NCBI RefSeq assembly: GCF_025685605.1
Contig: NZ_JAGTUT010000006.1
Coordinates: forward strand, 1-64,000
Source of the DNA: Granulicella arctica
GTDB lineage: Bacteria; Acidobacteriota; Terriglobia; Terriglobales; Acidobacteriaceae
DNA: 64,000 nt
Direction: 5' to 3'
The notes below the pieces were generated by a model. The model saw only the letters and a program-made list of their open reading frames with translations. It had not been told where the DNA came from and did not search any database. The position numbers were made by a program, and so were the translations under genes. This document shows, piece by piece, positions 27,808 to 48,848 of this stretch; position 1 is the first letter of the stretch; each line of letters starts with the position of its first letter.

Positions 27808-27860
27808 GGTGGCGACATTGCCGATAACCCGTTTCCGAAAACCATAAATCTTGCGACTTT
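27808..27860 (+). repeat. Diverged copy of the ~60-bp dispersed repeat
   Basis: Contains GCGACATTGCCGATAACCCG and then TTGCGACTTTAG, sharing the TTGCCGATAAC and CGACTTT blocks of the copies at 46971 and 47664. It lies in the gap between the HNH gene and the DUF2975 gene. Confidence 0.4.
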
Positions 27861-27961
27861 AGATTGTTGAACGAAATTATCGATAAACAGTAAAAATACA
27901 TTGACAAAGGTGATCCTAACCATCAAATTGAGTGCATAAAGGCATCTCAAGGAGACGATCA

Positions 27962-28507
27962 ATGATGCGACCTGAAAACGAAGCGAGGCTGACCAAGATC
28001 AAGAGGATCAGCGTCTTTCTGCGCGTGCTGAGCGTGCTTTATATGGTCAGTTGGGCGTGGATTCTCTGGCTTTTCGCTAGAGGACCTATCTTTTGGCAGG
28101 GACCCAATTGGGGCATTGGAACCGCTTGGTATAGCTACAACGGCGTTGAATTCAAGGTGTACAGCCTTGTCACTCGCGAACGCATCCTCGCAGCCATTTT
28201 CTTTGCTTTTTACTGGGGAAGCGCCATCCTGTGCGGCCTTCAGCTCTTTCGTTTGCTCGGCTTCTACTCCCGCGGAGAAATCTTCACGAGGAAGTCTGCC
28301 GGCCAGCTCCGTCAATGGGGTTTCGCCTGTTTGGCACTGGGCATCTCCAAGCTTAGCTACGCTCTCCTGCCGCTCCTGCTTGCCAACGCCCGGAGCACGC
28401 AGGAGGGAGACCTCAGCATGATCGTGAATGGATTCAGCATCGTGGCGATCTCATGGTTCATGGAGATGGCCGCGGAGATGCGGGAAGAAAACGAACTCAC
28501 GGTCTGA
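27962..28507 (+). CDS. DUF2975-family membrane protein
   Basis: The ATG at 27962 follows GGAG at 27951-27954. Four hydrophobic segments are present (YMVSWAWILWLFA, ILAAIFFAFYWGSAILCGLQ, ACLALGISKLSYALLPLLLA, VNGFSIVAISWFMEMA). The loop GFYSRGEIFTRKSAGQLRQW is typical of DUF2975. These proteins nearly always sit before a small XRE regulator of the YozG type, as here, 11 bases downstream. The pair is thought to be a membrane sensor/regulator unit; its signal is unknown. Confidence 0.85.
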   Translation: MMRPENEARLTKIKRISVFLRVLSVLYMVSWAWILWLFARGPIFWQGPNWGIGTAWYSYNGVEFKVYSLVTRERILAAIFFAFYWGSAILCGLQLFRLLGFYSRGEIFTRKSAGQLRQWGFACLALGISKLSYALLPLLLANARSTQEGDLSMIVNGFSIVAISWFMEMAAEMREENELTV

Positions 28508-28518
28508 CGGAGAACTCA

Positions 28519-28758
28519 ATGCCCATTGTTGTAAACATCGATGTCATGCTGGCACGGCGAAAAATGCGCTTGAATACGTTGGCAGACCTAGTTGGAATCA
28601 CGGCGCAAAACCTGTCCGTGCTCAAGACAGGACGTGCCAAGGCCATTCGCTTCAGCACGCTCGAACGTCTCTGCGTGGCGTTGGAATGCAAACCAGGGGA
28701 CTTGCTGGCGTACGAGCAAGGGTCTGCTTCAAATCTAGCTAGAGAGAACCTCAGGTAA
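28519..28758 (+). CDS. Small XRE (YozG-like) transcriptional regulator
   Basis: The protein is MPIVVNIDVMLARRKMRLNT followed by LADLVGITAQNLSVLKTGRA and LERLCVALECKPGDLLAYE, a complete Cro/C1-type helix-turn-helix of about 70 residues. It is paired with the DUF2975 gene. The C-terminal tail is short. The open frame reaches back to 28453 inside the upstream gene, but ATG 28519 gives the canonical form. Confidence 0.85.
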   Translation: MPIVVNIDVMLARRKMRLNTLADLVGITAQNLSVLKTGRAKAIRFSTLERLCVALECKPGDLLAYEQGSASNLARENLR

Positions 28759-28762
28759 TCTC

Positions 28763-28867
28763 TGTCGTGGGTGATCGTTACAAAGCGGTTGGTGCGTCGG
28801 CTCATGGAAAACGGAGTTTTCGGAAACAACAAAAATCGAAGTCGCCGAAAACACCGACTTTCGCGGA
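28763..28867 (+). repeat. Dispersed repeat, strong copy (cassette-boundary-like)
   Basis: The core at 28806-28867 runs from GGAAAACGG through CGGAAAC and GTCGCCGAAAACACCGACTT to CGCGGA. It includes the inverted pair AAGTCG/CGACTT. Upstream, TGTCGTGGGTGAT...AAAGCGGTT (28763-28790) is shared with 31886-31912. The copy lies between the XRE gene and the next gene. Confidence 0.6.
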
Positions 28868-28991
28868 GGCGCGCCGCCACGCAGGCGCGGGCTGGGGTCA
28901 ATCGAAGACCTAATCGAAGTTGTCGCGGGTCATTTTGGGGCGGCGGGCCATGCAGTTTGCGTAAAACGATTGCACCCGGTACGGTGTTCGC

Positions 28992-29402
28992 ATGCGACTT
29001 CCACTGAGAAAGATAGTTGCGACTCTCACCCTATGCGCTTTGAGTTCCACGATAATGGCGGCGCAACAGCCAGTCCAGTCCTCGTCTAGACAATCAGCTG
29101 TGGCAACAAAGGTTGCGACGCTTAGAGCCGGTGACAAAATCAGTGTCCTATTCATGCATGATGCTGAACGTTACGGAACGTTTCAATCTTCGCAACAGGA
29201 TGAATTTACCTTCCGTGACGTAGACCAGAACGTTGATGTGACGTTCCCTTATGCGGATGTTAAGAAGGTGAAGAGTGGGTATGGCGGTTACAATTCTGTC
29301 ACCCATAAACACACTGACCACGCCAAGGCATATATAGGAATCGGAATAGCGACTGGCCTAATTGTCGGAGTTGTTGTTGCCGCTGCAGCTGCCAAGAACT
29401 AG
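28992..29402 (+). CDS. Secreted or membrane-anchored small protein (136 aa)
   Basis: Signal peptide (LRKIVATLTLCALSSTIMAA), then a domain LRAGDKISVLFMHDAERYGT...FPYADVKKVKSGYGG. This resembles small SH3/Sm-like beta domains common in acidobacterial secreted proteins. A final glycine/alanine-rich hydrophobic helix (YIGIGIATGLIVGVVVAAAA) could anchor it in the membrane. No enzymatic motif. It stands alone between two copies of the dispersed repeat, as a gene cassette would. Confidence 0.7.
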   Translation: MRLPLRKIVATLTLCALSSTIMAAQQPVQSSSRQSAVATKVATLRAGDKISVLFMHDAERYGTFQSSQQDEFTFRDVDQNVDVTFPYADVKKVKSGYGGYNSVTHKHTDHAKAYIGIGIATGLIVGVVVAAAAAKN

Positions 29403-29538
29403 TAGTTGTGTCAAACCAGAAGCCTAGGCCACGCTTGATTGCAAAGCTTGTACTATCTGTAACCAGTCCTCTAGACGGTGACAGGCCGCTCTTATTTCGG
29501 CTGCAGAGGACGGTTCAGCGGGTAAAGCGTTGTGCACG

Positions 29539-29785
29539 CAAAACGGCATTAGCGGAAAGAACAGCATTGCAGCAGAGGCAAGGTCTGCGCCCGACCGTTA
29601 CTCGCAGACGGTGCCCAAGTGCCTGGGCGCGGTCAGCATTACCCTCTGGCCCCTTTCGGGGCGGCCCTTCCCCCCTGCTGCACCGACAGAATATCCCAGA
29701 GTTAGAGGGAGACCTCACTTGTACGCGGAAAACGGCATTCGCGGCAACTTCGGCTTGTTGTTGCCGAAGACCCGACTTTGCGGAA
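29539..29785 (+). repeat. Dispersed repeat, half copy plus strong copy
   Basis: A half copy, AAAACGGCATTAGCGGAAAG, occurs at about 29539-29558. A full copy follows at 29727-29785: GGAAAACGGCATTCGCGGCA, then TTGTTGCCGAAGACCCGACT and TTGCGGAA. The 170 bases between hold no clear gene. The order of blocks matches the copy at 28806-28867. Confidence 0.6.
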
Positions 29786-29841
29786 GCTACTCGAAACGCC
29801 GCCTTGTCTGTGGCAGCACGAGCAGAGCGGAACTCAACAGG

Positions 29842-30243
29842 CTAGGAATCAAAAAGCAGAGCGAGATGAAGAAGCCGAACCCGCCTTCCGACCGTTGCGA
29901 AGTCATCCCTCGGGTGAAGGGTGGCGAACAAGAGCCACAATGCAATGCAAAGGATTGTTATGCCTGCTGTCAATGACAGCCACCAAGCCCACGGTTTTCG
30001 CCGAGCTAAGCTGACTATCAGGTATCCGGCTACGGCAGCAGCAAGCGCGAAAACCGCACTGTCTCGAAATCGAGATCCGAAGAATGGGATCGCCTGTTTG
30101 TCCAACCAAGGCGATGCAGCATAGAAAAGCAAGAGTGAGAAGAACGTGACACCGAACAAACAGACGATTGCTATCGCTGCGTTCCCAGCACTATTTGAAG
30201 TCGAAGAGCGATTTTTCGTGTGTTGCTCAGGTTCACCGTCCAT
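29842..30243 (-). CDS. Small integral membrane protein (133 aa)
   Basis: Three hydrophobic segments: AAIAIVCLFGVTFFSLLLFY, DSAVFALAAAVAGYLIVSLA and WWLSLTAGITILCIALWLLF. The N-terminal 25 residues are polar and cytoplasmic. No family assigned. The 3' end approaches the dispersed repeat at 29727-29785. Confidence 0.6.
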   Translation of the reverse strand: MDGEPEQHTKNRSSTSNSAGNAAIAIVCLFGVTFFSLLLFYAASPWLDKQAIPFFGSRFRDSAVFALAAAVAGYLIVSLARRKPWAWWLSLTAGITILCIALWLLFATLHPRDDFATVGRRVRLLHLALLFDS

Positions 30244-30420
30244 CCTCGTACAGTTTAGCTGAACCTCGACACTCCTTGGAAACGGAGTTATGGGAAACTA
30301 GGCCCCTTGCAGCGCAACTAGCGCCTCTCCCGACGCGCTACTCTTTGCAAGCCGCTGAGCGCCGGGAGCTCAACAGCGGGCCCCCACTACTAACCTCATC
30401 AGTCGTTTATACTTTCGCAC

Positions 30421-31701
30421 ATGCAACGAACCGGACTGTGTTGCTCGGTGTGGATGTGGCTTGCCAGCATCATCCTTGTATTATCGGTCGTCACGAGTGT
30501 TTCGGGGTGGGGTGCAGGACAGACGACCATCCAGCATCGTTTAGTGACGCCGGGATCGATAAGCGGCCGCGTGACTCTTGACGATACAAACGGTCCAGCG
30601 CGGTTTGCCGCCGTTTCGATCCAGCCGGTCGAGCCTTCTTCATCTGTGGCCGATGCAGCAAAGCAGAAGGACGGCGATCCGGGCATCCTAACCGTATCGC
30701 GCATCGTGCGTACCACAGTGGATGGGAGCTTTCTGATTTCCCACGTTGCACCCGGTACTTACTACGTAATGGTCGACGCGGATCCGTATCTTTCTGCAGC
30801 CGGCTTGCTGACACGCGAGCAGCTGGATCACCCAACCAAGAAGATCGCCGATCTTATGGCAAGGTTGCTCGTCCCGGTTGTTGTGATGTCAGGTAGGAAC
30901 TCAACGGCGGATGTGCGGCTACATCGGGGAGGCAGCCTTAGCGGAACCGTTCGCTTTGACGACGGGGCGCCGTTCGAGGCAAGTGTGCGGCTTTTCCGCA
31001 TGGAGGACAAGGGCGTGTGGAAGGAGTTCCATGCCCATCTTTCAGGAGGCAATGCTTCTGTCGACGACCTGGGGCGCTTTCGCTTTGTGGGGCTACCAGA
31101 GGGATCGTACCGCGTGAGTGCCACTTTGTCGGTAGATGAGGAGTTCATGTCTCGACGTCGCACTACGATAGAGGGCTGGATGTCACGGAGCCTCTACTCA
31201 CTCCAGATCTATAGCCCGAATACGACGCGGGAGAAGGATGCGAAGATCTATCAGCTCTCGGATGGACAGGACGAAGAGGGTGTTCAGATTGAGGTGCCTC
31301 TTGGAAAACTGCACTCACTTGCGGGATCACTGGTAGAAAAAGCATCAGGACGCCCGATCAATGCCGGCCATGTTTCGGTGTTGTTTGCTGACGACGGGAA
31401 GGAACTCATGTCAACGGATGTGAGTGCAGAGGACGACGCATTTCACCTAGCGTTTGTACCGGAAGGGAGCTACACCCTTAGAGTCACCAACGCACGGGAT
31501 GCCGACAGAATCGAAGTGCTCAACCCATCCGGAGCGGTTCCTCCGTCTAATACAAAGGAGAAGACGTTGCAGAGCTTTGGCCAGACGACACAATCCATCA
31601 CCGTGACGACCGATGTGCAAGGCCTGCTGATCGCTGTTCCATCGTCCAACCACACTGACGCGGCGGCGGTAGTCAGTCCGGGAGCAGACTCTCTCCCATA
31701 G
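30421..31701 (+). CDS. Secreted protein with carboxypeptidase-regulatory (Cna-B-like) domains
   Basis: An N-terminal signal segment (WMWLASIILVLSVVTSVSGW) precedes repeated beta-sandwich modules with the hallmark GSISGRVTLDDTNGPARFAA ... VAPGTYYVMVDA, then GSLSGTVRFDDGAPF ... LPEGSYRVSATL, then HSLAGSLVEKASGRPINAGH ... VPEGSYTLRV. Three such modules in 426 residues indicate a structural or adhesive extracellular protein, common in acidobacteria. No catalytic domain is present. It is the last gene before a repeat-rich gap. Confidence 0.8.
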   Translation: MQRTGLCCSVWMWLASIILVLSVVTSVSGWGAGQTTIQHRLVTPGSISGRVTLDDTNGPARFAAVSIQPVEPSSSVADAAKQKDGDPGILTVSRIVRTTVDGSFLISHVAPGTYYVMVDADPYLSAAGLLTREQLDHPTKKIADLMARLLVPVVVMSGRNSTADVRLHRGGSLSGTVRFDDGAPFEASVRLFRMEDKGVWKEFHAHLSGGNASVDDLGRFRFVGLPEGSYRVSATLSVDEEFMSRRRTTIEGWMSRSLYSLQIYSPNTTREKDAKIYQLSDGQDEEGVQIEVPLGKLHSLAGSLVEKASGRPINAGHVSVLFADDGKELMSTDVSAEDDAFHLAFVPEGSYTLRVTNARDADRIEVLNPSGAVPPSNTKEKTLQSFGQTTQSITVTTDVQGLLIAVPSSNHTDAAAVVSPGADSLP

Positions 31702-31828
31702 CGTTGGCAGACGGGAGTACAACTGCGCGGAGACCACGTATGAGTCCTAAGGAGTCGACCGGTCCTAAGTCCGGACAAGGAAGATCCGTCCGTTTAACAG
31801 AGTGCTTCAATGTTTAGCAGCTTTGACT

Positions 31829-31948
31829 CCCCCGTCGTTGCCCAAAGTACCGACGTGGCGGGAGTCTCCCGCCGAAGACCGGAGTTGTCGTGGGTGATGC
31901 TTTATAGCGGTTACCGCTTGTTCTGACGAGAGATAACGCCGTTTTCAG
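31829..31948. repeat. Dispersed-repeat cluster
   Basis: Includes ACCGGAGTTGTCG (shared with 48830-48843) and TGTCGTGGGTGAT...TAGCGGTT at 31886-31912 (shared with 28763-28790). The inverted left block AACGCCGTTTTC (31936-31947) is the complement of the GAAAACGGCxT start of other copies. A short inverted repeat GGCGGGAGTCTCCCGCC lies at 31857-31873. Confidence 0.5.
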
Positions 31949-32135
31949 TCTTTATTGAAATTCGGTCGTGGCACCGTGTGACATAGATAAGTTCTTTGCT
32001 GTCGAGCGAGAACCGCAGCGAATCCCCAGCAAACCAACGAGGATTGCCACCAAACTTCCTAAATTGCGTGTCGGCTCGGCCCTGAGGATGGAGTTCTTTT
32101 TCCGTCCAGAGATCTTCCAACGTGAAGCGCTGCAC
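31911..32135 (-). CDS. Possible small protein or fragment (74 aa)
   Basis: MQRFTLEDLWTEKELHPQGR continues with GGNPRWFAGDSLRFSLDSKE, a beta-rich text that could be part of a larger protein. Its last dozen residues are translated from the dispersed repeat, so the C-terminus may be accidental. No start signal is clear. Confidence 0.3.
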   Translation of the reverse strand: MQRFTLEDLWTEKELHPQGRADTQFRKFGGNPRWFAGDSLRFSLDSKELIYVTRCHDRISIKTENGVISRQNKR

Positions 32136-32290
32136 AACAGTTCCCCCGTCGGGGCGCCTATGCCTTCGATCCCCGGCGCGTGGCGCTGCTGTTGCTGGGA
32201 GGCGATAAGACCGGCGATGGTCGATGGTATGAGAAGGCCATACCGCGGGCCGAGAAGATCTATGCGAAGCACCTGGAGGAGTTGGGATGA
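32126..32290 (+). pseudogene. HigB-like toxin, C-terminal fragment
   Basis: The frame reads YAFDPRRVALLLLGGDKTGD followed by GRWYEKAIPRAEKIYAKHLE, the conserved end of RelE/HigB-type (phage Gp49-like) toxins. The first half of the toxin is missing; an upstream stop lies at 32123. Its stop overlaps the antitoxin start (ATGA at 32287-32290) as in intact modules. Confidence 0.75.
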
Positions 32291-32589
32291 AAAGCTGGGC
32301 AAAGATTCGTGGAGAAATGCCGCTGGAGAGTCAGGCGCGCCTGGATGCTCGCCTAGAGGAAACGCTGGCGTCGATGCCGCTGGACAAGATGCGGAAGGCT
32401 CCTAGCTTGACCCAGGTAGCCGTAGCGGAACGTCTGCATGTCGATCAGGGTTCCGTATCCAAACTCGAAGGCCGAACCGATATGTACCTCAGTACCCTGC
32501 GGGAGTACGTGGAGGCTCTCGGAGGCACGCTGGAGCTGAGAGCAGACTTCCCCGATGGGTCGATCAATATCGACCTGCACGCTTCCTAA
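32287..32589 (+). CDS. higA: HigA-like XRE antitoxin
   Basis: An N-terminal helix (LESQARLDARLEETLASMPL) is followed by a Cro/C1 helix-turn-helix (LTQVAVAERLHVDQGSVSKL) and the typical continuation DMYLSTLREYVEALGGTLEL. This order matches antitoxins of HigBA modules with the toxin gene first. The toxin gene before it is truncated, so the antitoxin is an orphan. A strong terminator follows. Confidence 0.8.
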   Translation: MKSWAKIRGEMPLESQARLDARLEETLASMPLDKMRKAPSLTQVAVAERLHVDQGSVSKLEGRTDMYLSTLREYVEALGGTLELRADFPDGSINIDLHAS

Positions 32590-32641
32590 ACTTCCCCGTC
32601 GTCGGAGCTGTGGGCAAAGTGGGCGGCGCGTAGCGACGTCC

Positions 32642-32667
32642 ACGGCGGCTTCTGCCGCCGTCTTTTC
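32642..32667 (+). terminator. Intrinsic terminator after higA
   Basis: An 8-bp GC-rich stem ACGGCGGC/GCCGCCGT (32642-32649, 32654-32661) with a TTCT loop, followed by CTTTTCC. Good rho-independent form. Confidence 0.8.
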
Positions 32668-32888
32668 CATAGCTAAGTCTTTGCTTGGGTTGGGGTGGAG
32701 TAGTCGCCTGCCAAAGAGAAACGAAGAACACAACATGATTGCTGCACATGTGACCGCACCATAGCCTGTCGTCTTTGAAGCGGTCCAGTGAATGTCCATG
32801 CCAAGAGACCCCAGTAGGACTCCGAAGAAACGAACCGTCGCAAGCAGTAATAAAGGGAAAGAGCAGCAGACGTAAGCCGAGCGCAGAT

Positions 32889-33125
32889 CTACTTGTCGAG
32901 ATGGCCGTTGCCTCGAAAACCCCGGAGCGTAAGCACAGCACCCGCTACTATGAGCAACGCTGGGAAGGCGAAGAACAACAGGCCTACCGCAGAATGCACA
33001 CCCATGATGAACATGTGGTGGAGGAATAAACCTAACGTGGCATATGCCGCGACAAGGCCAAAGCCCAATGTCATCAGGCTGCCGCCCACAAATCCGAGCA
33101 GAGTATGCCTTGTGGATGGGTTCAT
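32889..33125 (-). CDS. Small membrane protein (78 aa)
   Basis: Two hydrophobic segments (LLGFVGGSLMTLGFGLVAAY, and HSAVGLLFFAFPALLIVAGA) joined by a short loop FLHHMFIMG. No family recognised. It lies 24 bases downstream of the neighbouring minus-strand gene and is probably co-transcribed with it. Confidence 0.5.
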   Translation of the reverse strand: MNPSTRHTLLGFVGGSLMTLGFGLVAAYATLGLFLHHMFIMGVHSAVGLLFFAFPALLIVAGAVLTLRGFRGNGHLDK

Positions 33126-33148
33126 GACTTCAATCCTGTTCCTGGTTG

Positions 33149-34087
33149 CTAGCTGATTTCTTTAACGTGAGAGTCAATCCCGAAGAGCGAGACCTTGAGA
33201 CATTTGAATGAATCCGAAGAGAACTCTTCGAGCAGTGTCTTGAAGTTTAGAAGTGCACGACGCTCGATTTCCTCACGCCCTTGGCAAGGAGCGCAGGAGG
33301 AACTGCACCACATCGCATCTGTAATGGTGATGCAAAATTTAGGCAACTCCGGTCGGTTTTCAAGGTGCTTAAGCGTAGCTTCTTTCATGTCGACCGATTC
33401 CCAGGGCAGGGCTGATCGACGTAAGTAGGCACGGGCATACTCGGCAACAAGTCGCGCTAGGTGATCGTTGTGAAGGCGTGGGATGTCACATAATGCAGCG
33501 AGTACGACCTTGGCATCTCGATTCTCTGCGTTGGCCAAGCGAACCTGCTGCGCTACATACGTCGCTGCGCTTTTGCGTAACTGCAACTCTGCCCCGTAAT
33601 GATCGGGGTCGGTGCCAGCGATCTCCCCGTCGGCAAACATGACGAAGTCAATTTCGAACATCAGCTCGACAGCCTGGTAGTCGAGGGAGGAAGTTGAACC
33701 TGCTGCCATGATGCCGCCGCCTGCTAACACACGATTGATGAGAGCTTCGTCCACACTGCCAGCCTGAGTCACAAGTAGCCGAGATCCGGGCGACATCACT
33801 GGGCGATAGACATCAACCGCATAGCTGTCGCTCGAACTAGTCTTCTTTCGGTTTTTACCCTCAGCATCAACGAACACCCACCGGTAACGCAACGCGGTGA
33901 TCTCTTTTTCAGATTGATTTTCAATGACAATAGCGGTTTCAGCGGCCTCTGGATCTTGGGCGAAATGTCGAAGGGGAGAGTCTTCCTGCATCTTCTCGAA
34001 GACCTTCCGAAAGACGAGGGAATCCTTCTCTCGGTAGGGTGTGAGCACTACGTAATCACTCGGACTAGGAATGAGCTGTAATCGCAT
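33149..34087 (-). CDS. Hypothetical protein (312 aa)
   Basis: No signal peptide. The N-terminal half contains immunoglobulin-like strands (AAETAIVIENQSEKEITALR, RWVFVDAEGK). The C-terminal half is helical and ends near CSSSCAPCQGREEIERRALL, a cysteine cluster that could bind metal. Relatives may exist in acidobacteria, but I cannot name a family. It is adjacent in the same direction to the secreted protein gene upstream. Confidence 0.6.
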   Translation of the reverse strand: MRLQLIPSPSDYVVLTPYREKDSLVFRKVFEKMQEDSPLRHFAQDPEAAETAIVIENQSEKEITALRYRWVFVDAEGKNRKKTSSSDSYAVDVYRPVMSPGSRLLVTQAGSVDEALINRVLAGGGIMAAGSTSSLDYQAVELMFEIDFVMFADGEIAGTDPDHYGAELQLRKSAATYVAQQVRLANAENRDAKVVLAALCDIPRLHNDHLARLVAEYARAYLRRSALPWESVDMKEATLKHLENRPELPKFCITITDAMWCSSSCAPCQGREEIERRALLNFKTLLEEFSSDSFKCLKVSLFGIDSHVKEIS

Positions 34088-34116
34088 GGGAGATCACTCT
34101 GCAAAGAACACTCCTA

Positions 34117-34992
34117 TTATGGCGTTTTCAAATCGCCTTTCGCTATGCACGAATCGCCCGGCATCTTTTCCCATTCGGTCGCTCTTGGTGCCTGGTTTGG
34201 ACCAGAGGGCCAGGCACCGGAAAAGGTCATCCCATCCTCCGCAATCTTTGCGGTGAATGAGTGAGAGCAACACATCGCTGTATAAGCTCGCAGCTCGACC
34301 GTAATCTGATCGGGGGCGTCCAGTTTTGCTTTTGCAATCTCTCCATAATGCTCTCGCGTCTGTGCCGGGGGCTGGATGCCATTTGCATATCGCACCCGTC
34401 CGGGGATCATGATGTCGTCGGACCACGCGGCCAAAGTTTCATCCTGCTGCTGAGCAATATGCACACAGTTGTTCATCATGCCGCCGCCCTTCTGGAACCA
34501 CGTTCCCACAAAAGGACTTTTCGTCAATTTTGAGGCTGGGCGCTTGAGCACAACCTCTTTTTGGAACGGGCCTCGCTCGAACAGGCCGGTCCATGTCTGC
34601 GATTCTGGGTGCCAGACCAGTTCCACATCCGTTGTAGGGAGATCGGCTTTACCAGTCAGGTGAATCCCTAGCCGATGCCCGTCCCAGCTCGCACCGCCAT
34701 TCGGTGCGTTGAAAAAGTTGAAGCCAAAGGGCTCTACATCTGGACCCGCGCGTTGGTAGAGGCCGACGGTGAACTCTCCCTCCAATTGAGGCTGGCCTGC
34801 GAGACTTGCGGGTGTCCCGTGAATGTATGTGGTCAGGATGATGTTCATGCCCACTGCGCCACCATGACCGTCCGAAACCTCCCATCGCCCGGCCAAGGCT
34901 TCTGGGTTAGGTACCAGGGAGGCGTCCTGCTGCGCGTTTCCTACTCCACTCGCAAGCAACACCATCAGGCTAAGACGTATCCAGGTGCGCAT
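34117..34992 (-). CDS. Secreted hypothetical protein (291 aa)
   Basis: The start at 34992 gives a good signal peptide (MRTWIRLSLMVLLASGVGNA) and a predicted cut before QQD. The mature protein begins with GRWEVSDGHGG and ends in a region with FVGTWFQKGGGMMNNC and AMCCSHSF. Two repeats of a lipocalin-like GxW pattern (LAGRWEVSDG, FVGTWFQKGG) suggest two beta-barrel or sandwich domains. The frame is open to 35076, but the longer form hides the signal peptide. Function unknown. Confidence 0.65.
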   Translation of the reverse strand: MRTWIRLSLMVLLASGVGNAQQDASLVPNPEALAGRWEVSDGHGGAVGMNIILTTYIHGTPASLAGQPQLEGEFTVGLYQRAGPDVEPFGFNFFNAPNGGASWDGHRLGIHLTGKADLPTTDVELVWHPESQTWTGLFERGPFQKEVVLKRPASKLTKSPFVGTWFQKGGGMMNNCVHIAQQQDETLAAWSDDIMIPGRVRYANGIQPPAQTREHYGEIAKAKLDAPDQITVELRAYTAMCCSHSFTAKIAEDGMTFSGAWPSGPNQAPRATEWEKMPGDSCIAKGDLKTP

Positions 34993-35024
34993 GGGGAATC
35001 CTTTAGAACCGTCTGCAAGTGACT

Positions 35025-35453: not shown

Positions 35454-35605
35454 GCAACAAATCTAGCACTTAAGTTTCTGGCAACATCAGACATACGCTG
35501 GGGAACGTGACTTAGCTGCTGCCAACGAATACCTATAGAAATATCTGCCAGCGGTCTGTGGCAAAAGTTGCGATGCTTTAGCACTATTCGGGGTCACTAC
35601 ACCGG

Positions 35606-40421: not shown

Positions 40422-40480
40422 CTCCAGTCAGCAAGTGTGTCAGTATCGAGAACAACCAGAGTTGTCAGGTCAAGGAGCTT

Positions 40481-41782: not shown

Positions 41783-41795
41783 GGATTTGCGTCTT

Positions 41796-42188
41796 TTACG
41801 AGTGCTGGAAGAGCCATTCGAGATCAGGAATCTTCTCAGAGACCTCTTTGCGGAGAGCTTCCGCCTGACGAGCGGCGTCTGCTTCGCTTGTGGCTGAGGT
41901 CGCTGGAATCTCCATCACGAGAATGCCAATCGGGCGGCTCTTCGTATCGAACATCAGCATCTTCATGTTGTAGAAAGCGCCGTCCGTATTGAGCGGGCCG
42001 TAGGTCTTGCCATCTTTAGTAGCCGCGAAGTCGCCGATGGAGGTATGGATGCCGATTCTGCTTGCGTTCCCATTCGCAATGAGAATCATCTCCTTCTGAC
42101 GCGGCGGGATGACGTGAAGTCCTATCCTGGGGTCCCGGCAGAATTCGGAGATAGGGCACGATAATCTCGGCAGGCTCATTGAGAACAA
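41796..42188 (-). CDS. Hypothetical protein, probably 5'-truncated (130 aa)
   Basis: The part from about residue 25 (GLHVIPPRQKEMILIANGNA, RIGIHTSIGDFAATKDGKTY, FDTKSRPIGILVMEIPATSA) looks like a real conserved domain with a PAS/cache-like strand pattern. The first 24 residues look like junk read through a junction. The true start is thus probably lost. No function can be given. Confidence 0.5.
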   Translation of the reverse strand: MFSMSLPRLSCPISEFCRDPRIGLHVIPPRQKEMILIANGNASRIGIHTSIGDFAATKDGKTYGPLNTDGAFYNMKMLMFDTKSRPIGILVMEIPATSATSEADAARQAEALRKEVSEKIPDLEWLFQHS

Positions 42189-42311
42189 AGGGTTTAGCTC
42201 AGCACTGGTACTTTACATCAAGGCTCGCGTGACGTGACTGTATGTTGTTGATTTCATTGGCAGACTCTGCCACTAACGTGCTTTACTTTCCGAATTCTGA
42301 CGGGCCCCCTG

Positions 42312-42349
42312 CTTAGCGTACATAAATTACCCTTTCTTGAACTGTCCCC
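42312..42349 (-). repeat. Diverged Tn3 terminal repeat (34 of 38 bases match)
   Basis: Same orientation as the right end at 16175-16212, differing at four positions. It marks the end of a second, lost Tn3-family element. No partner end or target duplication is seen. Confidence 0.75.
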
Positions 42350-42563
42350 TATGTACGAAAGCCGCAACTCAAATATGTTCCGGGAGACGATAGGCCTTTG
42401 ACGCACGATGCTTACAGGGCATCCACGTCCAATACCGTCCAGGTACCGGCACCTTCGGCAACCAAGACACTGGTCACCAAGAAGGGGGCCGTCAACTAAG
42501 CTGATCACAAACAGCACTAACTAACCGGCCCAACAACAAAGCTCCTCCCATCGAAAACAGTCT
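42350..42563. other. Gene scrap and hairpin
   Basis: A short plus-strand frame ending at 42499 reads STSNTVQVPAPSATKTLVTK and stops with TAA, resembling the tail of a secreted protein cut by the Tn3 end. A perfect 10-bp stem GCTCCTCCCA/TGGGAGGAGC (42541-42550, 42565-42574) follows and may terminate it. Confidence 0.4.
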
Positions 42564-42632
42564 GTGGGAGGAGCCTTGCATCTAAAGAGAGATAAAGCGG
42601 TGCGACGAACGGTGTCCTCTGAGGTTGAAACG

Positions 42633-42902
42633 ATGAGCAGAAGAATGGATGAAGCCCTCGTTCTGCGAGTGCAAGAACATCTTCACCGTAAGCTGGCAGA
42701 AGAGTTTCCTGGGACGATCAATGTTGCTGCGCTCTTCCTGGAATGTCCTGTAGGGATCGAACTCTGGATGGAACACTGCACACGGAAACCCAATGCTTCT
42801 CTTCTCGCACCCCTCAGTGCCGAAGACGATCCGGACGCCCATGGGGACTCGGTCAAGTTTTGGAACCATGTCAATGAGTGTGCGGAGTGCAACCCGGTAT
42901 AG
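42633..42902 (+). CDS. Small hypothetical protein (89 aa)
   Basis: The ATG at 42633 follows GAGG with eight bases between. The text MSRRMDEALVLRVQEHLHRK ends with HVNECAECNPV, a cysteine pair that could bind metal. No known family. The longer frame from 42564 begins inside the hairpin and is less likely. Confidence 0.5.
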   Translation: MSRRMDEALVLRVQEHLHRKLAEEFPGTINVAALFLECPVGIELWMEHCTRKPNASLLAPLSAEDDPDAHGDSVKFWNHVNECAECNPV

Positions 42903-42946
42903 CCACATGTTGCCTTTCGACAACGATGGACACCCTTACTGCACCG

Positions 42947-43285
42947 TTATTTAGTATTGATGGCGGCTAGTCCCAGCACTGTATGAATCTGCTGGTAAGC
43001 GTTTCGATTGTCTCTCATGGCGCCTCTGGATACATCGCAGGGAATGTGCTGGTTCTGCAACTTTTTCGCGAAGTAGACATGCCGATGTCCATTCGAACAA
43101 CGGAACACGCCATAAGAAGGAATGCTGCTCATCGATCCGAATTCAGGATCTCCATGTTTACCGAAGACATAGGTCGTCTGGCAGGTTCTGCATCGAATTC
43201 CCCAACATGGACAATCTGAATGGAGCAAACAGCACGGATAGGAGAACTCGATCGGAGAAGCAACAGCCATTTCACTTGGATGCAA
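42947..43285 (-). CDS. Hypothetical cysteine/histidine-rich protein (112 aa)
   Basis: The protein contains a probable zinc site (CPCWGIRCRTCQTTYVFGKH and CSNGHRHVYFAKKL). It is free of membrane segments and has no catalytic motif I know. It lies on the minus strand some 220 bases downstream of another zinc-ribbon gene. Confidence 0.5.
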   Translation of the reverse strand: MHPSEMAVASPIEFSYPCCLLHSDCPCWGIRCRTCQTTYVFGKHGDPEFGSMSSIPSYGVFRCSNGHRHVYFAKKLQNQHIPCDVSRGAMRDNRNAYQQIHTVLGLAAINTK

Positions 43286-43507
43286 TTCGATGTCTCGTAG
43301 GCAGCGTTTGAAGACAACACGTTCCTCTGCTTTGCCGTGCCCAGAAGGATTGCTCTTGATCTTAAGAACTGAAGCTGATCCACGAATACATGGGTGTGCG
43401 GAGTTGGCAGAGAGTCAAACCAGGCACTGCAATTGTTCTCACCGCACGAAGCCTTTCGATTCGAAAGCGAAGGGGAACAAAGACTTCTCTTGGTTAGGCT
43501 ACTGCTT

Positions 43508-43684
43508 CTATGAGCGGTGTCGGGTGCGGAAGTGGCTGCTACAGTTGGCGCAGCGATACGGCCAATACCCGGCAAGGTTCCAGAATCGATCGATGCCATG
43601 ACGGTGCACGCGGACTGCGCTCTGGTTTTTACACTTTGGACAAATCACGGGTTCGCGATCCACAATCTTCGATGATTTCCGCAT
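43508..43684 (-). CDS. Short zinc-ribbon protein (58 aa)
   Basis: Reading from ATG 43684: MRKSSKIVDREPVICPKCKN, then VRVHRHGIDRFWNLAGYWPY and RCANCSSHFRTRHRS. Two CxxC pairs flank a basic helix, a form common among short acidobacterial proteins. Length and composition are intact. Probably binds nucleic acid or acts as a regulator; not shown. Confidence 0.65.
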   Translation of the reverse strand: MRKSSKIVDREPVICPKCKNQSAVRVHRHGIDRFWNLAGYWPYRCANCSSHFRTRHRS

Positions 43685-43756
43685 AGGCGATAGTAGCAGC
43701 GTTGCTGCAGTGAAATCCGTTCTGCTTACCTGCTCTCGTCCCCCTTTACTTCGTCC

Positions 43757-43812
43757 GCCGAGACGGCGCTTTGCTCAATACGACCGAAGTTGCCGAAAGA
43801 CTCTGCGGGAAA
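43757..43812 (+). repeat. Dispersed repeat, moderate copy
   Basis: CCGAGACGGCGCTTTG followed by CGAAGTTGCCGAAAGACTCT and GCGGGAA. Same block order as the strong copies, with a shorter middle. Confidence 0.45.
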
Positions 43813-44230
43813 GAGATACCGGCGACGTGCTTGAGCGGGCCTGCTACACCAAATTGCGCTAAATGATGGTCAATGTGTTTTGTACTGAATCGCCCATTGA
43901 TGCGGTTTGAGCGGCTCAAAGAAAGGATGTCGCGAGAAGCTCTTTCAATGCCTCTGGTGTGAATGTGCTGGCAGCGAGTACCACCTCCACTTCGTGAGGT
44001 CCTTCAGCCTCCGCGCCGCTTCTAGTGGGCGATAGACATCGATAAGAAAAAACGAAAGTCGGCAAGAGCATACAGAAACGGGCTACTGGATTTGGAATAA
44101 CTTTAGTATGAAGCCGATTGCGAATTGGATAGGCTCATCCCTCTCATGGCTGACTCTCAACCTCTTTTGGAAAGGCTTGACTCATTAGAAACGACTTCCG
44201 CGCAATTCGTTGGTTTATGGCATGCCAGCT
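43813..44230. other. No convincing gene
   Basis: Short frames only. I see no start signals or family motifs in this stretch. Confidence 0.4.
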
Positions 44231-44521
44231 TTAACGTTGTTTCTGCGCTACAGCGGCTTTTCTCAATGCAAATCCGCTTGAGGACGGACGCACTGCCAGG
44301 TAGACGAAAGCAGCCACGATGATCGCCAGCATGAAGAAGAATAGGAAAGGGTTACAGCGAATGCTGTGTGTCCCTGAAGGACTCTTCTTGAGGATCGGCT
44401 TACCTGGTTGCATCATCATCAGATGCGAGGGTGCTTTATTGGGTTTTCGAGGCAAATGACCGAATTGTTGAGGTGTCCAGTACGCAGTGCCTAGCGTTGC
44501 GTTTGTGAGCAAGAACTTCAA
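44231..44521 (-). CDS. Small single-pass membrane protein
   Basis: One strong hydrophobic segment (PFLFFFMLAIIVAAFVYLAV) with a polar N-terminal part. The start may be 44521 or one of the internal methionines of MMMQPGKPILKK. Unknown function. Confidence 0.4.
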   Translation of the reverse strand: MKFLLTNATLGTAYWTPQQFGHLPRKPNKAPSHLMMMQPGKPILKKSPSGTHSIRCNPFLFFFMLAIIVAAFVYLAVRPSSSGFALRKAAVAQKQR

Positions 44522-44565
44522 TGTCGTCTTCGGAGTCTTTGACGATCTCGGCTTAATCTAAGGTT

Positions 44566-44847
44566 TTATGCAGAAGAGAGGCTGAATACAGCGCATTGGC
44601 CATCGTCGAACGTCATGATCACGTCGCCATTGAGTCTCTCCGCCGATAGCAGGCGCGGCACTGATGGAATCTTTATGCATCCATGCTCGTTGAAGTGCTT
44701 GGGGTTCGTCAGTACGCATAGAAGCGCTTGGTCTACACGATGTTTTTGGAGTGAATTTGATTCCGTCGCAGAGTGTTTCAGCTTGTCGTAATCGGCTTCG
44801 TCTATCTGACGTTCTGGATGAGAGGTCGTTACTCTAGCGCAGAATGA
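44566..44847 (-). pseudogene. DUF2442-like gene, 5'-truncated by a Tn3 fragment
   Basis: The C-terminal text VPRLLSAERLNGDVIMTFDD and GQCAVFSL fits the small DUF2442 fold (often an antitoxin-like partner). The frame continues upstream into transposase DNA at 44848, with no start codon in between except inside the transposase piece. I therefore call it truncated. Confidence 0.4.
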
Positions 44848-44976
44848 GACGGCACCGGCAAGCGGTCTGAATTTGATTGTGGCTGCGATCACGCACTGGA
44901 ATACCGTCTATCTCGAACGCGCGGCAGAGCAGATGGCCGAATCGCGGCAGTTCGATTTTGCGTTGCTCCGCACGAG
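44848..44976 (+). pseudogene. Tn3-family tnpA fragment
   Basis: The frame reads LNLIVAAITHWNTVYLERAA and EQMAESRQFDFALLRT, matching residues near the end of the intact-family TnpA at 11016-13714 (LNLVVAAITFWNTVYLERAT). It is only 43 codons long and cut at both sides. Together with the repeat at 42312 it proves a second, older Tn3 element. Confidence 0.85.
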
Positions 44977-46251
44977 CTATCTTTCATCGCTACGAACTGT
45001 CATAAAAGTTCTTGCTTTCCGCAGGGTGAGCGAGGAGAAGCGGCCTAGCTGAAGGAACCGCGGAAAATGCCTTGGGGTGGGCACAGGGAATTCGGCGCCA
45101 ACGAGCCACTGTGTCTCTGGCGAGGATGCGAGCACGCGGGTAATGAGCAGCGACCCCGTATATGTCAAGACCAATACCAAAATCCAAAGAAACACCCCTT
45201 CCTCCCCCTGATTCATATGGAGTCGCGCTGTGAGGAAAGGCGGAATCCTGCGACAAGCTTTACAACATAGGTCCATGACAATGCTGTGTGTTAGGTACAG
45301 GCCGAACGTATCGCGGCGCACGTTCACAAAGCGTGGCCAGCTCGCGGTGGGGATCTTCATCAAGAAAAGAACGACCATGATGGAGTAGATTTGATTGGTG
45401 AATCGGAGTGTGTTGCTGGGATCGACGGAATGTAGATGTACGAGCAACAGTGTTTCCGCGTAGGCCATTGTCAGGCTTACAAGCGTCAGCGCAACCATCG
45501 TGTTGAGTGAGATTTCGCTTATCCATTGGGTCATTTTGACGATGTGCTTTGAAGCGAACGAGCCTAGCCACAGATCAAAGACGAACCCGAACAGAGCTTC
45601 GAGATGCGAGCTAGGTATCCACAGTCTGTAGATGTTCACTACATAAAACAGGTGAACGGCCAAAAGAACCAATCCAAGACGGATATCGTACAGGTATCGA
45701 CGCAATGCAAGCAGAACAAGAAGTGCAAGCAGCAGATTTGGAACGAACCAGAATGATGTCGAAAGCAGGCAATCCCTCAATCGACCAAATAGGACAGGTA
45801 GCAGGTTGTGCAGGCTTAGTACAAATCGATGGTGAAGGAGATCAAGGCTTATTGTGTAGGTAATGAATACCGTCACCCAGATGAGCCATGGAAGAAAAAC
45901 CTTCTTGACGCGTCGACCGAAATAGTGGGTTCGGCGGCTTGTTTGAAGACGCTCCCCAAGGAGGAAGCCGGAGATGAGAAAGAATCCAACAGTTCCGAAC
46001 TTCAATGGAACTTTCAGTGCATCTTTCCATGAAGAAGGCGCATTGACAAGATCAAATGCGCCGGTGGCATGTATTGCGATGATCGCAAGCATAGACCAGA
46101 AGCGAACGTTATCAACAAAAACATGCCATCCCACTTGAGCAGTTCGAGACGAAACAAGCAATGGCTCCGCACGCATCTTGCGCATGGTGTCGAAGTCTTT
46201 CACGGGTGTTTCGAGGATCGATTCTGTTACCTGTGAGTTCGGGTTATCCAT
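44977..46251 (-). CDS. Acyltransferase-3-family membrane protein
   Basis: About ten membrane segments are present. The N-terminal signature VDNVRFWSMLAIIAIHATGA carries the Arg and the catalytic His of the AT3 family (OafA/NodX type), which transfer acetyl or other acyl groups to exported sugars. FLISGFLLGERLQTSRRTHY and VKKVFLPWLIWV are also typical. Length 424 is normal. The C-terminus runs to the border of the tnpA fragment, so the last few residues may be altered. Candidate role: acylation of an extracellular or lipid-linked polysaccharide. Confidence 0.85.
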   Translation of the reverse strand: MDNPNSQVTESILETPVKDFDTMRKMRAEPLLVSSRTAQVGWHVFVDNVRFWSMLAIIAIHATGAFDLVNAPSSWKDALKVPLKFGTVGFFLISGFLLGERLQTSRRTHYFGRRVKKVFLPWLIWVTVFITYTISLDLLHHRFVLSLHNLLPVLFGRLRDCLLSTSFWFVPNLLLALLVLLALRRYLYDIRLGLVLLAVHLFYVVNIYRLWIPSSHLEALFGFVFDLWLGSFASKHIVKMTQWISEISLNTMVALTLVSLTMAYAETLLLVHLHSVDPSNTLRFTNQIYSIMVVLFLMKIPTASWPRFVNVRRDTFGLYLTHSIVMDLCCKACRRIPPFLTARLHMNQGEEGVFLWILVLVLTYTGSLLITRVLASSPETQWLVGAEFPVPTPRHFPRFLQLGRFSSLTLRKARTFMTVRSDER

Positions 46252-46970
46252 CTGCGCGTCTGGGCAAGAGGTCAGGTCTTCTGCAAGTTGAGTCCAAAAT
46301 AGAAACCTCTTCGTTCTCGCAACTCTCGATCGAATTCCTTCTCAGGCTTCGTGGCTCTCTGAAACAACTTTATGAGACCACTTCTCAAAACCACTCAGAA
46401 TAAACAGTTCTTTTTACGTCCAAACGCGCGGATCAAGGCTCCGATAAACCTTTGAGGTTGGTTACTGTTATACGACAACTTGCCTTCGTGGTGTAGTACT
46501 TGTCAACAGAAACGTAAGATACACCTGTTTACCTTGCAGTTTGTTTTACTCGCTGGGCGACTTGATAGTAAAGCTTAGGTCTTCGGCCTTGTGTACTCTC
46601 CATGACCTTTCGCAAGGCTGATCGCAGAGCTCGCGACCCACGGCGGTTCGGAATTTGCACTCTGGCAAAGACTGCTGCCCCACAAGCCTTCGGCGATTTC
46701 CGGGAGCGTGCTTTGGGGTTCAACAATAAGCAACAAGCCTAGAATTAACACCCGGCATGAACAGAGCCGCATATTCACCTCACCATCTACACCTAAATAC
46801 TCACAAATGTTGTTTTCGCCGGGTTACCTTACTCAGTTCGTTCCTTTATCCATGGTTTGAGGAATGCTAGCGGAACATTCGAATTCACGATTACCATGCT
46901 GGAGGTCCTTTCGCATGAGGAGCGGCACTGTTTTATCACCTTCATCTTGGAGGTGGTACTCGACACCTAT
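46252..46970. other. Intergenic region, no firm gene
   Basis: Contains the promoter side of the acyltransferase gene. A minus-strand frame at 46575-46778 has a signal-like start (RLCSCRVLILGLLLIVEPQS) but no motif or ribosome site and is probably spurious. Confidence 0.4.
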
Positions 46971-47033
46971 CGAAAACGGTCTTTTTGGGAAACTACGAAA
47001 TCGACGTTGCCGATAACACCGACTTTTACGGAA
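46971..47033 (+). repeat. Dispersed repeat, strong copy
   Basis: CGAAAACGGTCTTTTTGGGA, then AACTACGAAATCGACGTTGC, then CGATAACACCGACTTTTACG and GAA. It aligns along its whole length with 28806-28867, ahead of the gene starting at 47077. Confidence 0.6.
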
Positions 47034-47076
47034 TATCGGGTATCGTCTCTCTATGTATGCTGCTCACGAGGGCTCA

Positions 47077-47577
47077 ATGCGACGGTCAATATTATTAACG
47101 AGTGCTGCCGTTGTCTTGGTGAGCATGGCATTAGCTTGGAAGGTATTTGTCGTTCTTGGCTGGAGAGCTACCCACCCAAACCGGATCACGTATCCATTCA
47201 GTGCTTCATTTGCTTTTCCATGGATGGTCGTTTCGCAGTCAGAGAATGGAGTCAAAGTGGAGAGATTCACTCACCTATTTCCCACATTTCGAACTTCGTA
47301 CTCCGAGGTAGTTCTCCAGAATGAGCCGCCTAAACTCGCTGCCCAGCCGGACGACTTATGGTTGGCTGAGCGGTCGGCAATGTTTAGGCAGAAGGCACTT
47401 GCTCGTCGTTATCGCAACGGGTCAATCCTATGTGCCGAGTGGCAGATGGGTCGATCGCAGGCCGACTATTGCCGTTCTCGGGGAGGCACCGCTACTTACG
47501 CGGGCACGGGAGCTGACTTCATGAACGCGATAGATGTTCTTGCCGACCTTTCTTCCGAGGAGACAGTCGTTCGCTAA
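47077..47577 (+). CDS. Hypothetical secreted or anchored protein (166 aa)
   Basis: Start at the second methionine gives MRRSILLTSAAVVLVSMALA, a signal or anchor segment, followed by a polar domain (FPWMVVSQSENGVKVERFTH, LFPTFRTSYSEVVLQNEPPK) and a helical end. No family recognised. It is framed by two copies of the dispersed repeat (46971-47033 and 47664-47716), as a mobile cassette would be. Confidence 0.55.
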   Translation: MRRSILLTSAAVVLVSMALAWKVFVVLGWRATHPNRITYPFSASFAFPWMVVSQSENGVKVERFTHLFPTFRTSYSEVVLQNEPPKLAAQPDDLWLAERSAMFRQKALARRYRNGSILCAEWQMGRSQADYCRSRGGTATYAGTGADFMNAIDVLADLSSEETVVR

Positions 47578-47663
47578 TGGGGTAAGGACGTCGAGCTTGG
47601 ACAGAGGATAGTTCCAATCGAAGCAGGTATGAGAGACGGGATTATGGCCAACCTGAGCCCAAT

Positions 47664-47716
47664 CCGCCGTTCTGAATGGCCGACGTTGCCGATAACACCG
47701 CCAAGACTTTGCGGAA
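47664..47716 (+). repeat. Dispersed repeat, strong right half
   Basis: CCGCCGTTCTGAATGG, CCGACGTTGCCGATAACACC, then AAGACTTTGCGGAA. Right block identical to the copy at 46971 over GACGTTGCCGATAACACCG. Confidence 0.55.
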
Positions 47717-47761
47717 CTTACCTACAATCAGGGAGCCGCATTCTCTCCGTGTGCCAAGCCC

Positions 47762-48676
47762 TTACTCTCGGGCCTGTTGCTCCGTTGGAAACAGAAAGCT
47801 CACCGCGGGGCCGAATCTCTCGCTCCAATACTTCGGTTGATGTTGGCCGCCCGGTTGCACGGTCAGTCTCACGTCCGGATGGTTCATCAGACTTTTCTGA
47901 AAATTGTTAGCCAGCGTCTGGCTCATTGTGACAAAGGCACCATCGAATCTAGGAAATCCATGTGCGGCAGCTTCCGCCGGCGGAACCTCCGCCGTTCCGA
48001 CTCCTATGGATATCCGTATTGGCCCTTGCACCACCTGAGATGTCTCCTGCAGGATTCTGCCATTCCCATTTTGGAGTGACGTGCTCTCCAGCAGGCCCAA
48101 GCCAAATGTATCCGGTTGATCGAGCAGCAGAGTCAGCGCGGCGAGGGACGCCAGAGAAGCGCCGCCGACTCCACGGTGTGCTCGATCCGCTGTCGTCCGA
48201 TACTTCCCATCGATCAGCGGAAGAACTTCAGTCGTCATGAAGGCAGACAGCTTTTGTGGTGCGTTCGATACCTCGCCGTATCGGGAATACTCGTCTTCGC
48301 GCACACCAGGCCCAGCATTATCAATACCAACAACGATCAAGGGCGCGAGTGTTCTCTTAAGGATGAGGTCTGTCACGATCTCGTCAACGTGCCATTCATC
48401 TGGAAACGGTTGCGAGGTGCAGCGATCGAAGAGGAACTGCCCGTCGAAGAGGTAGAGCACCGGATAGCGCTTTGATGCCAGAGCCGAGTCGGAGTAGCCG
48501 GGCGGCAGCCACACACGAAGAAAACGCTTCTTGCCGTAGACTCTGCTCTCGAGTGGAATCGTCTCAAGATGACCGGTAACCGTGCTCTTGCAGGCCTGGG
48601 CCGGGACTTGCGATTCCAACTTGGCATCGAGCATTAATCCGCAAGTCAGCAGGACCAACGCCGCGCGAAGAATCAT
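47762..48676 (-). CDS. Secreted esterase of the enterochelin-esterase/PF00756 type
   Basis: A signal peptide (LRAALVLLTCGLMLDAKLES) precedes an alpha/beta-hydrolase: FLRVWLPPGYSD and RYPVLYLFDGQFLFDR, then PLIVVGIDNAGPGVREDEYS. The nucleophile elbow region RGVGGASLASLAAL has Ser in a G-x-S-x-A context. The C-terminal His is in QPGGQHQPKYWSERF. The family hydrolyses ester bonds of siderophores, feruloyl or acetyl esters. The exact substrate is not evident. Confidence 0.8.
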   Translation of the reverse strand: MILRAALVLLTCGLMLDAKLESQVPAQACKSTVTGHLETIPLESRVYGKKRFLRVWLPPGYSDSALASKRYPVLYLFDGQFLFDRCTSQPFPDEWHVDEIVTDLILKRTLAPLIVVGIDNAGPGVREDEYSRYGEVSNAPQKLSAFMTTEVLPLIDGKYRTTADRAHRGVGGASLASLAALTLLLDQPDTFGLGLLESTSLQNGNGRILQETSQVVQGPIRISIGVGTAEVPPAEAAAHGFPRFDGAFVTMSQTLANNFQKSLMNHPDVRLTVQPGGQHQPKYWSERFGPAVSFLFPTEQQARE

Positions 48677-48798
48677 AGAACCTCTCCTGCAATCGCCGAT
48701 ACGATCGCTATGGCTGCGCGATGATTATCCAACGCTCAGTAGATGAAGTTCAAACTCCGTTGAGGATGACCCATCGCAAACATTCAATCCGCATCCCT

Positions 48799-48848
48799 GA
48801 AACTGGCGTTTTCGGCAACACCCCCTACAACCGGAGTTGTCGGCGTTG
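48799..48848 (-). repeat. Dispersed repeat, reverse orientation, moderate copy
   Basis: AAACTGGCGTTTTCGGCAAC followed by AACCGGAGTTGTCGGCG. It shares ACCGGAGTTGTCG with 31879-31891 and the inverted left block with other copies. It lies between the esterase and the membrane-protein gene. Confidence 0.45.

Follow-up and report, generated by a model that had tools for sequence, protein, structure and literature searches.

A 64,000-nucleotide stretch of Granulicella arctica DNA (from contig NZ_JAGTUT010000006.1, hereafter the window) contains a family of repeats that probably mark the borders of gene cassettes in an integron-like capture system of Terriglobia, in which a dedicated XerC-like recombinase would recombine core sites. 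A system that is integron-like, and not an integron, is supported. This reading is drawn from the sequences themselves: the anatomy of the sites, their arrays, the cassettes shared between arrays, breakpoints in the core centres, a recombinase at some array heads and its co-occurrence with the repeats. The first-pass annotation of the window had proposed a recombination-site array, perhaps belonging to an undescribed gene-capture system of acidobacteria, and this proposal is supported by the mobility of the cassettes, by the recombinase and by the avoidance of genes. Dozens of copies are found in same-orientation arrays in the G. arctica genome and many in related Granulicella and Edaphobacter genomes; the conjugative plasmid pACIX905 carries sites too.

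Anatomy of the sites

The repeat family is real and extends far beyond the window. A 21-base motif from its right half gives two matches in the window, against none in 100 shuffles, and 49 matches (up to 3 mismatches) in the whole 5.85-Mb G. arctica genome, where the reversed control pattern gives none. A covariance model of the site, R1, was trained on 26 short-spacer sites of the same genome, including window sites 28799-28867 and 46965-47032, with 29720-29785 outside the training set. It yields 86 matches in that genome at E <= 1, many of which are one site read on both strands.

In the site alignment the repeat is about 66 bp long and made up of two inverted copies, L and R, of a core of about 27–30 bp. 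The core has the form CCGCAAA - 6/7 bp - TTT(T/G)CGG, with centres that differ between L and R. In G. arctica, the L core reads ..CCGCAAA-ACGGCG-TTTTCGGCAAC and the R core, on the other strand, ..CCGCAAA-GTCGGTG-TTTTCGGCAAC. Judged by sequence, inverted half-sites around 6–7 bp are the classical build of a tyrosine-recombinase core. The repeat, described in the first-pass annotation as having imperfect dyads inside, is a pair of inverted core sites. In Granulicella aggregans, TTTGCGGAA is present in the L and R halves alike, so that L and R change together between these two lineages; the outer boxes AAACGG (L) and CGACTT (R) are constant between the two species.

The distance between the two cores is not arbitrary. 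When the exact 6-mers AAACGG and CGACTT alone are counted in 1.00 Mb of fetched array loci, the gaps between them fall into three ranges, 35–41 (57 pairs), 46–49 (18 pairs) and 53–62 (52 pairs), peaking at 38, 47 and 59 bp, with one pair at 42–45 and none at 50–52; a control with reversed box order gives 0, 1 and 3 pairs in the three ranges. Among the spacing periods tried on the 109 detected sites, 10.5 bp is the strongest (R 0.715). With similar spacers merged into 37 clusters, R is still 0.615, a value reached by none of 20,000 uniform draws, within the limits set by a detection window of 32–66 bp and by shared spacer ancestry. Spacing in phase with the helix speaks for binding of both cores in double-stranded form, and it is on double-stranded cores that the enzyme would act.

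Arrays and cassette contents

Of 46 pairs of neighbouring sites separated by under 4 kb, 43 share a strand and three are on opposite strands. The 38 cassettes between detected sites have a median length of 715 bp, and their longest open reading frame (ORF; at least 80 amino acids) has the direction of the array in 24 and the opposite one in 12. On pACIX905, a complete plasmid of Granulicella tundricola MP5ACTX9, R1 finds 12 matches, ten of them in the annotated stretch examined. None of these ten overlaps a listed gene, while random 80-bp placements are gene-free in 24% of cases, the gene table being incomplete; the sites avoid genes, and equal occurrence inside genes, named in the first-pass annotation as grounds for giving up the idea, is not what the plasmid displays. 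From a G. arctica array nine cassette proteins were tried, of which seven have no Pfam match at E <= 0.001 and two match Pfam below the curated cut-offs.

That the repeats are hairpin-forming and intergenic would also suit repetitive extragenic palindromes (REP) of the kind served by REP-associated tyrosine transposases (RAYT), or regulatory hairpins such as terminators, spread by duplication. We consider this hardly credible, as the repeats cluster in islands and plasmids and are not evenly distributed, their halves have different conserved centres at helically phased distances, and a recombinase is found at array heads.

Cassette exchange and breakpoints

The gene content between copies is mobile: complete cassettes, 93–99% identical, recur in different arrays with unrelated neighbours, one of them in two species, and their breakpoints lie in the sites. 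A 523-bp unit is 93% identical in two G. arctica arrays. On pACIX905, two units of 645 and 708 bp are each duplicated at 98–99%, the first encoding WP_157478416.1 at both places, and a 354-bp unit is 97.2% identical between G. arctica and G. aggregans. The 174-residue gene of the window at 47053-47577 has a single homologue in 61 other genus genomes (E <= 1e-8), in Edaphobacter modestus (L327; 40% identity), lying there between what remains of an R core and an L core, in the same orientation.

In a base-by-base display, identity ends inside core centres, of L or of R. Breakpoints in L centres are seen on pACIX905 (L200:15520/L201, 99% identity), in G. aggregans (L230:4593/L231 and L199:14363/L231), between G. 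arctica L042:16064 and 16417 and G. aggregans L196 (97.2%), in L031:3464/L042 (88%) and at both ends of a 131-bp unit, L201:6116-6246/L227. R-centre breakpoints are L200:14876, L200:18341, L201:9801/L212 (85%) and the start of L038/L042. A crossover in the spacer between the arms was rejected, since single-base breakpoints fall in the core centres. The junctions L196/L223, L198/L218/L229, L218/L223 and the end of L230/L231 were set aside as insertions of an element in core centres; the pair L212/L218 (96%, genomes G240/G258), which also breaks near an L core, was left out, and L195/L197 was left out of the interpretation.

The element inserted in core centres is presumably IS30-like, with a transposase containing rve and HTH_38; an assignment to IS110 was rejected on these domains. 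It is present at L218:4300-5553, with junctions in L196, L198, L223, L229, L231 and L327. These insertions bear on whether the repeats could be miniature inverted-repeat transposable elements, or the ends of one ordinary transposon inserting between genes. Short, palindromic, dispersed and intergenic repeats would fit. However, the arrays have a single orientation, the gene between copies is exchanged with breakpoints inside the repeat, and the IS30-like elements sit inside sites, which makes them insertions into the repeat and not the repeat itself; nor was a transposase noticed among the nine cassette proteins, with no systematic search made for a shared one. A transposon origin is accordingly given next to no weight.

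The recombinase

In an array on G. arctica contig C3, the head site (L042:7359) comes immediately behind the stop codon of a gene for a tyrosine recombinase. This gene is frameshifted (ORFs 6398-7027 and 7024-7353), and remnants of it, 89–94% identical and with the same gene end and head sequence, are located at the G. arctica arrays L031 and L041. Intact recombinases stand at array heads in G. aggregans (L199:11972-12928, 318 amino acids, on a contig 100% identical to NZ_JACHIP010000022.1) and on pACIX905 (WP_013573308.1, L200, a 335-residue ORF). In four genomes (L042, L199, L200 and E. modestus L254) an R core is found about 5–10 bp past the recombinase stop codon, and a second, outward-facing R core no more than about 100 bp ahead of the start codon. 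In G. aggregans and on pACIX905 the gene is flanked on its two sides by sites of opposite orientation, with a second array behind it, so that arrays appear to grow both ways. The R cores on both sides of the recombinase have the inner half-site version of the local array in G. arctica and G. aggregans. A tyrosine recombinase had been suggested as the enzyme, and one does stand at some array heads, although in G. arctica it is encoded on another contig than the window and is frameshifted. By eye, a G+C-rich inverted repeat (e.g. GGAGGCGGCCTCC) is present just before the recombinase start in L042, L245, L200 and L254, and possibly regulates the gene.

The best matches of the recombinase are XerC/XerD models and Xer structures. 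It contains a Phage_integrase domain (PF00589, 86 bits) with a complete catalytic R-K-H-R-H-Y set (R162, K189, H259, R262, H285 and Y294), and would be the catalyst of the exchange. In a structure comparison, XerA, Cre and XerH rank above the integron integrase IntI4, an order that, with a model of mean predicted local distance difference (pLDDT) 77, supports no claim. Among phage records, 270 give a match, none of them reaching 60% identity. G. arctica has an intact relative of 63% identity (contig C3:42601); given the frameshift, cassette movement in this genome may have stopped unless this relative stands in.

A recombinase co-occurring with the repeats was looked for and found. All six genus genomes with a recombinase relative of at least 77% identity have at least 18 R1 matches, as do two of the 54 others (Fisher 5.6e-7). 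The six have 63 (G. arctica itself), 41 (G246), 26 (G243), 19 (G017), 18 (G240) and 18 (G264) matches; G. arctica supplied the R1 model and G246 the recombinase query, and leaving out both gives 4/4. R1 matches occur in 27 of 60 genus genomes at E <= 0.05, and, under stricter filters and E <= 0.01, in 15 of 250 family genomes (five of 79 genera), the family figure being an undercount because only 20 candidates were scored per genome. Around recombinase homologues of about 60–100% identity (1.17 Mb), 16 composite sites are found, against none in the reversed control. Four of them are again in G. aggregans, three are on one contig of another genus (L140), and further ones are on contigs of metagenome-assembled genomes (L266, L270 and L317). 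Gaps of 33–35 and 57 are seen outside G. aggregans.

The recombinase having Xer enzymes as its best relatives, host XerC/XerD might be thought to act on the sites with the nearby recombinase as a passenger, as they do on pdif modules, which are known from Acinetobacter plasmids as groups of genes with dif-like sites at their borders (PMC9455709). A dedicated recombinase between two R cores at array heads, co-occurring with the arrays, speaks against this, as do inner half-sites that vary by lineage and are matched by the recombinase-flanking R cores in G. arctica and G. aggregans, if not in E. modestus. We hold host XerC/XerD to be a very improbable agent.

Proposed mechanism

In the proposed mechanism, the dedicated XerC-like recombinase, encoded between two outward-facing single R cores that would be attI-like, recombines core sites. 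Each cassette would span from R core to L core, so that a junction between cassettes carries L, spacer and R. Exchange of R with R at the core beside the recombinase gene, or of L with L or R with R between two junctions, would insert, delete or move one cassette, probably with circles as the intermediate, and the differing L and R centres would hold arrays to one orientation. Whether this is a cassette system independent of integrons, with a XerC-like recombinase acting on paired inverted double-stranded cores and its gene between two attI-like cores, so that arrays would grow in both directions, we judge to be evenly balanced.

The main rival is an attC-like hairpin mechanism, which keeps the same system and enzyme. 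Integron attC sites recombine in the form of a folded bottom strand bearing extrahelical bases. The inverted cores here would fold into a single-strand hairpin whose outer and inner boxes would together imitate a single core, and exchange of one strand would take place with a double-stranded attI-like R core. The folded top strands of three sites indeed give one hairpin each, the conserved asymmetry (ACGG vs GTC) is like extrahelical bases, head sites are single cores like attI, and the two strands would be cleaved where breakpoints are seen, in the L or R centres. On the other side, an arm phasing of about 10.5 bp is unexpected for a hairpin loop, the arms conserve sequence and not pairing alone, both cores are used, and the recombinase is without an IntI-like insertion relative to Xer. 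Neither within junctions nor within cassettes is there covariation between the arms (arm matches are 9.10 for cassette pairs, 9.27 for random same-genome pairs and 9.34 for junction pairs, the latter selected for matching), and a folded-strand reading of the repeat was rejected for this absence. A hairpin mechanism is considered unlikely, the phasing and the missing covariation telling against it without being decisive, but clearly ahead of host XerC/XerD, transposon ends or REP-like repeats.

Several observations weigh against the proposed cassette system with its dedicated recombinase and double-stranded cores. Taken as single strands, the sites also form hairpins (z -1.8 to -3.5), which leaves room for attC-like action. 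The unit L197:4034/L198:2314 is joined once to an L core and elsewhere to an R core, making the separation of L and R less than absolute. In E. modestus L254, the inner half-sites of two composite sites differ from those of the recombinase-flanking cores. An R motif within 110 bp past the stop is present in 13 of the 78 recombinase homologues with sequence there (control rate 4.3%), using a pattern that missed the E. modestus core, and L246 and L277 are without one; as a family-wide rule it was rejected, and the post-stop R core is claimed for the four genomes alone. Arrays without a close recombinase relative are present in genomes G262 (61 matches) and G013 (20); these would be arrays that lost or lack the enzyme. 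Three of the six co-occurring genomes (G017, G243 and G264) are listed as 7–8% contaminated, and R1 match counts may include one site on both strands. Three G. arctica arrays (L035, L036 and L038) start at an unrelated 220-residue gene and not at a recombinase, the upstream stretch common to the copies of this gene forming their head.

The 220-residue gene (L036:8297-8959) has no Pfam family, and its copies in L032, L035 and L038 are 87–96% alike to that of L036. At the fourth copy, in L032, the first site is located about 0.9 kb beyond the common stretch. The L035 region contains fragments of a recombinase relative of about 60%, some 8 kb beyond the array head.

The array in the window

All R1 composite sites of the window are on the + strand, four of them clear and the one at 47624 weak (Table 1). 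Of the copies described as strong in the first-pass annotation, those at 28806, 29727 and 46971 are clear R1 sites and that at 47664 is borderline, its R half being disturbed; the site at 21446-21511, absent from the earlier list, was found by R1. Five weaker copies (27808, 29539, 31829, 43757 and 48799) have no R1 match up to E 5. On visual inspection, single halves make up 29539 (L) and 31829 (R), 27808 is a fragment resembling R, and degenerate composites are present at 43757 and 48799; the last of these, listed as reverse, reads on the + strand instead. The gene assignments between copies, to a DUF2975 and Cro/C1-type helix-turn-helix pair and to an esterase, are confirmed by Pfam. No recombinase of the cassette-system type is present in the window, whose array may thus be fixed; the stretch has the appearance of an array that lacks a recombinase of its own.

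Table 1. Repeat sites and cassette genes in the window.
Feature	Position	Strand	Evidence or remark
Composite site (L core, spacer, R core), diverged	21446..21511	+	R1 38.3 bits, E 2.3e-7
Cassette content: DUF2975 protein and Cro/C1-type helix-turn-helix protein	27962..28758	+	PF11188, PF13443
Composite site	28799..28867	+	R1 74.4 bits, E 9e-17; training site; L core ~28800-28829, spacer, R core ~28837-28867
Cassette gene, 136 amino acids	28992..29402	+	No Pfam family
Lone L-type half, weak	29536..29560	+	Direct-repeat family D8 and sequence; missed by R1
Composite site	29720..29785	+	R1 40.7 bits, E 5.4e-8
Lone R-type half, weak	31838..31863	+	5 mismatches vs R half
Composite site	46965..47032	+	R1 60.1 bits, E 5e-13; training site
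Cassette gene, 174 amino acids	47053..47577	+	No Pfam family
Probable composite site, 5-base disturbance in R core	47624..47716	+	R1 18.7 bits, E 0.028 (borderline)
Cassette gene, putative esterase	47762..48676	-	PF00756

Elsewhere in the window, positions 8387-9334 (+) encode a tyrosine recombinase of a related subfamily, 49% identical to the cassette enzyme; relatives of it occur on contigs C3 and C4, and a composite site next to it was not found. Two identical inverted copies of an 814-bp insertion sequence (IS) are located at 13715-14528 and 24893-25706, the transposase (24944-25675) being a DDE enzyme of the IS240 type; the third copy, at 16323-17015, is 77% alike. The 2.9-kb stretch 17067-19988 is 84% identical to L043:10079-12999 of the chromosome, both being near composite sites.

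Comparison with known systems

Membership of the integron integrases is not supported for the recombinase: the two intact enzymes score only 30.9 and 33.9 bits with the NCBIfam model TIGR02249 (cut-off 265), and none of eight genomes has an IntI above this cut-off. At ten sub-threshold loci (E. modestus, G243 and G. arctica), the integrases mostly lie in front of a presumably IS91-like transposase, and an integron integrase elsewhere in the genome was rejected as a candidate. Two of the ten adjoin sites in E. modestus (L328 and L329), and the other eight are without a site at E <0.1. The two, L328:5474-6271 and L329:3914-4735, are IS91-like elements with an IntI-resembling integrase, directly beside composite sites. 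Canonical attC boxes (RYYYAAC/GTTRRRY) are present in none of the 109 sites on either strand (0.2 expected from shuffling). The earlier statement that the repeats differ in sequence from integron sites and have no integron integrase next to them agrees with the missing boxes and the low IntI scores. In integron integrases the catalytic core contains an I2 insertion some 20 residues long (PMC4792948); the recombinase has no 20-residue net insertion relative to Xer, its alignments spanning 155 query against 149 chain residues with the XerC-like structure 4a8e and 210 against 205 with XerD. Acidobacteriota are among the phyla with true integrons (PMC8618304). No description of the present cassette system was found in the open-access literature, subscription papers and preprints being outside the search; the word 'integron' is absent from the acidobacterial genome papers PMC5900883, PMC3174227 and PMC4148992, and 'cassette' from the first two, in which it was searched.

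Several known systems share parts of this organization. The pdif modules (PMC9455709) likewise carry accessory genes on plasmids and are bounded by dif-like core sites, but here there is a dedicated recombinase, two cores per boundary, and one-orientation arrays with a head. The arrays are also like shufflons in having a tyrosine recombinase with an array of core sites. Shufflon recombinases (Rci) invert segments of one gene, whereas the present arrays gain, lose and relocate separate genes, in one orientation. IS1111/IS110 elements target integron attC sites, and here too insertion sequences strike the recombination site, although those in or beside the cores are presumably IS30-like and IS91-like.

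Integrons, treated as the cassette-capture system of bacteria, are alike in several respects: a dedicated tyrosine recombinase at the head with an attachment site adjoining its gene, arrays in one orientation whose single genes are mostly unknown, site sequences typical of the lineage, arrays without a recombinase (clusters of attC sites lacking integrases, CALIN, in integrons) and cassettes common to several species. They differ in that the recombinase here is XerC-like and not IntI, the site consists of two sequence-conserved inverted cores at a helically phased distance, breakpoints are in both cores, and an attI-like core is present on each side of the recombinase. Furthermore, intI is transcribed away from its array, whereas the recombinase here (L042, L199, L200 and L254) reads towards the R core past its stop, into the array. 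If the proposal is true, a second capture system with its own enzyme and site type would exist in several genera belonging to a common phylum of soil bacteria, and on a conjugative plasmid as well. It would add a stock of mobile genes, for the most part unknown, which tools built on attC should overlook, and pACIX905 would be a complete plasmid on which it can be tested. Since the paired core already forms a hairpin, it may show the sort of site that could have given rise to single-strand attC recombination, and would offer a natural comparison for how the latter evolved from double-strand Xer-type recombination.

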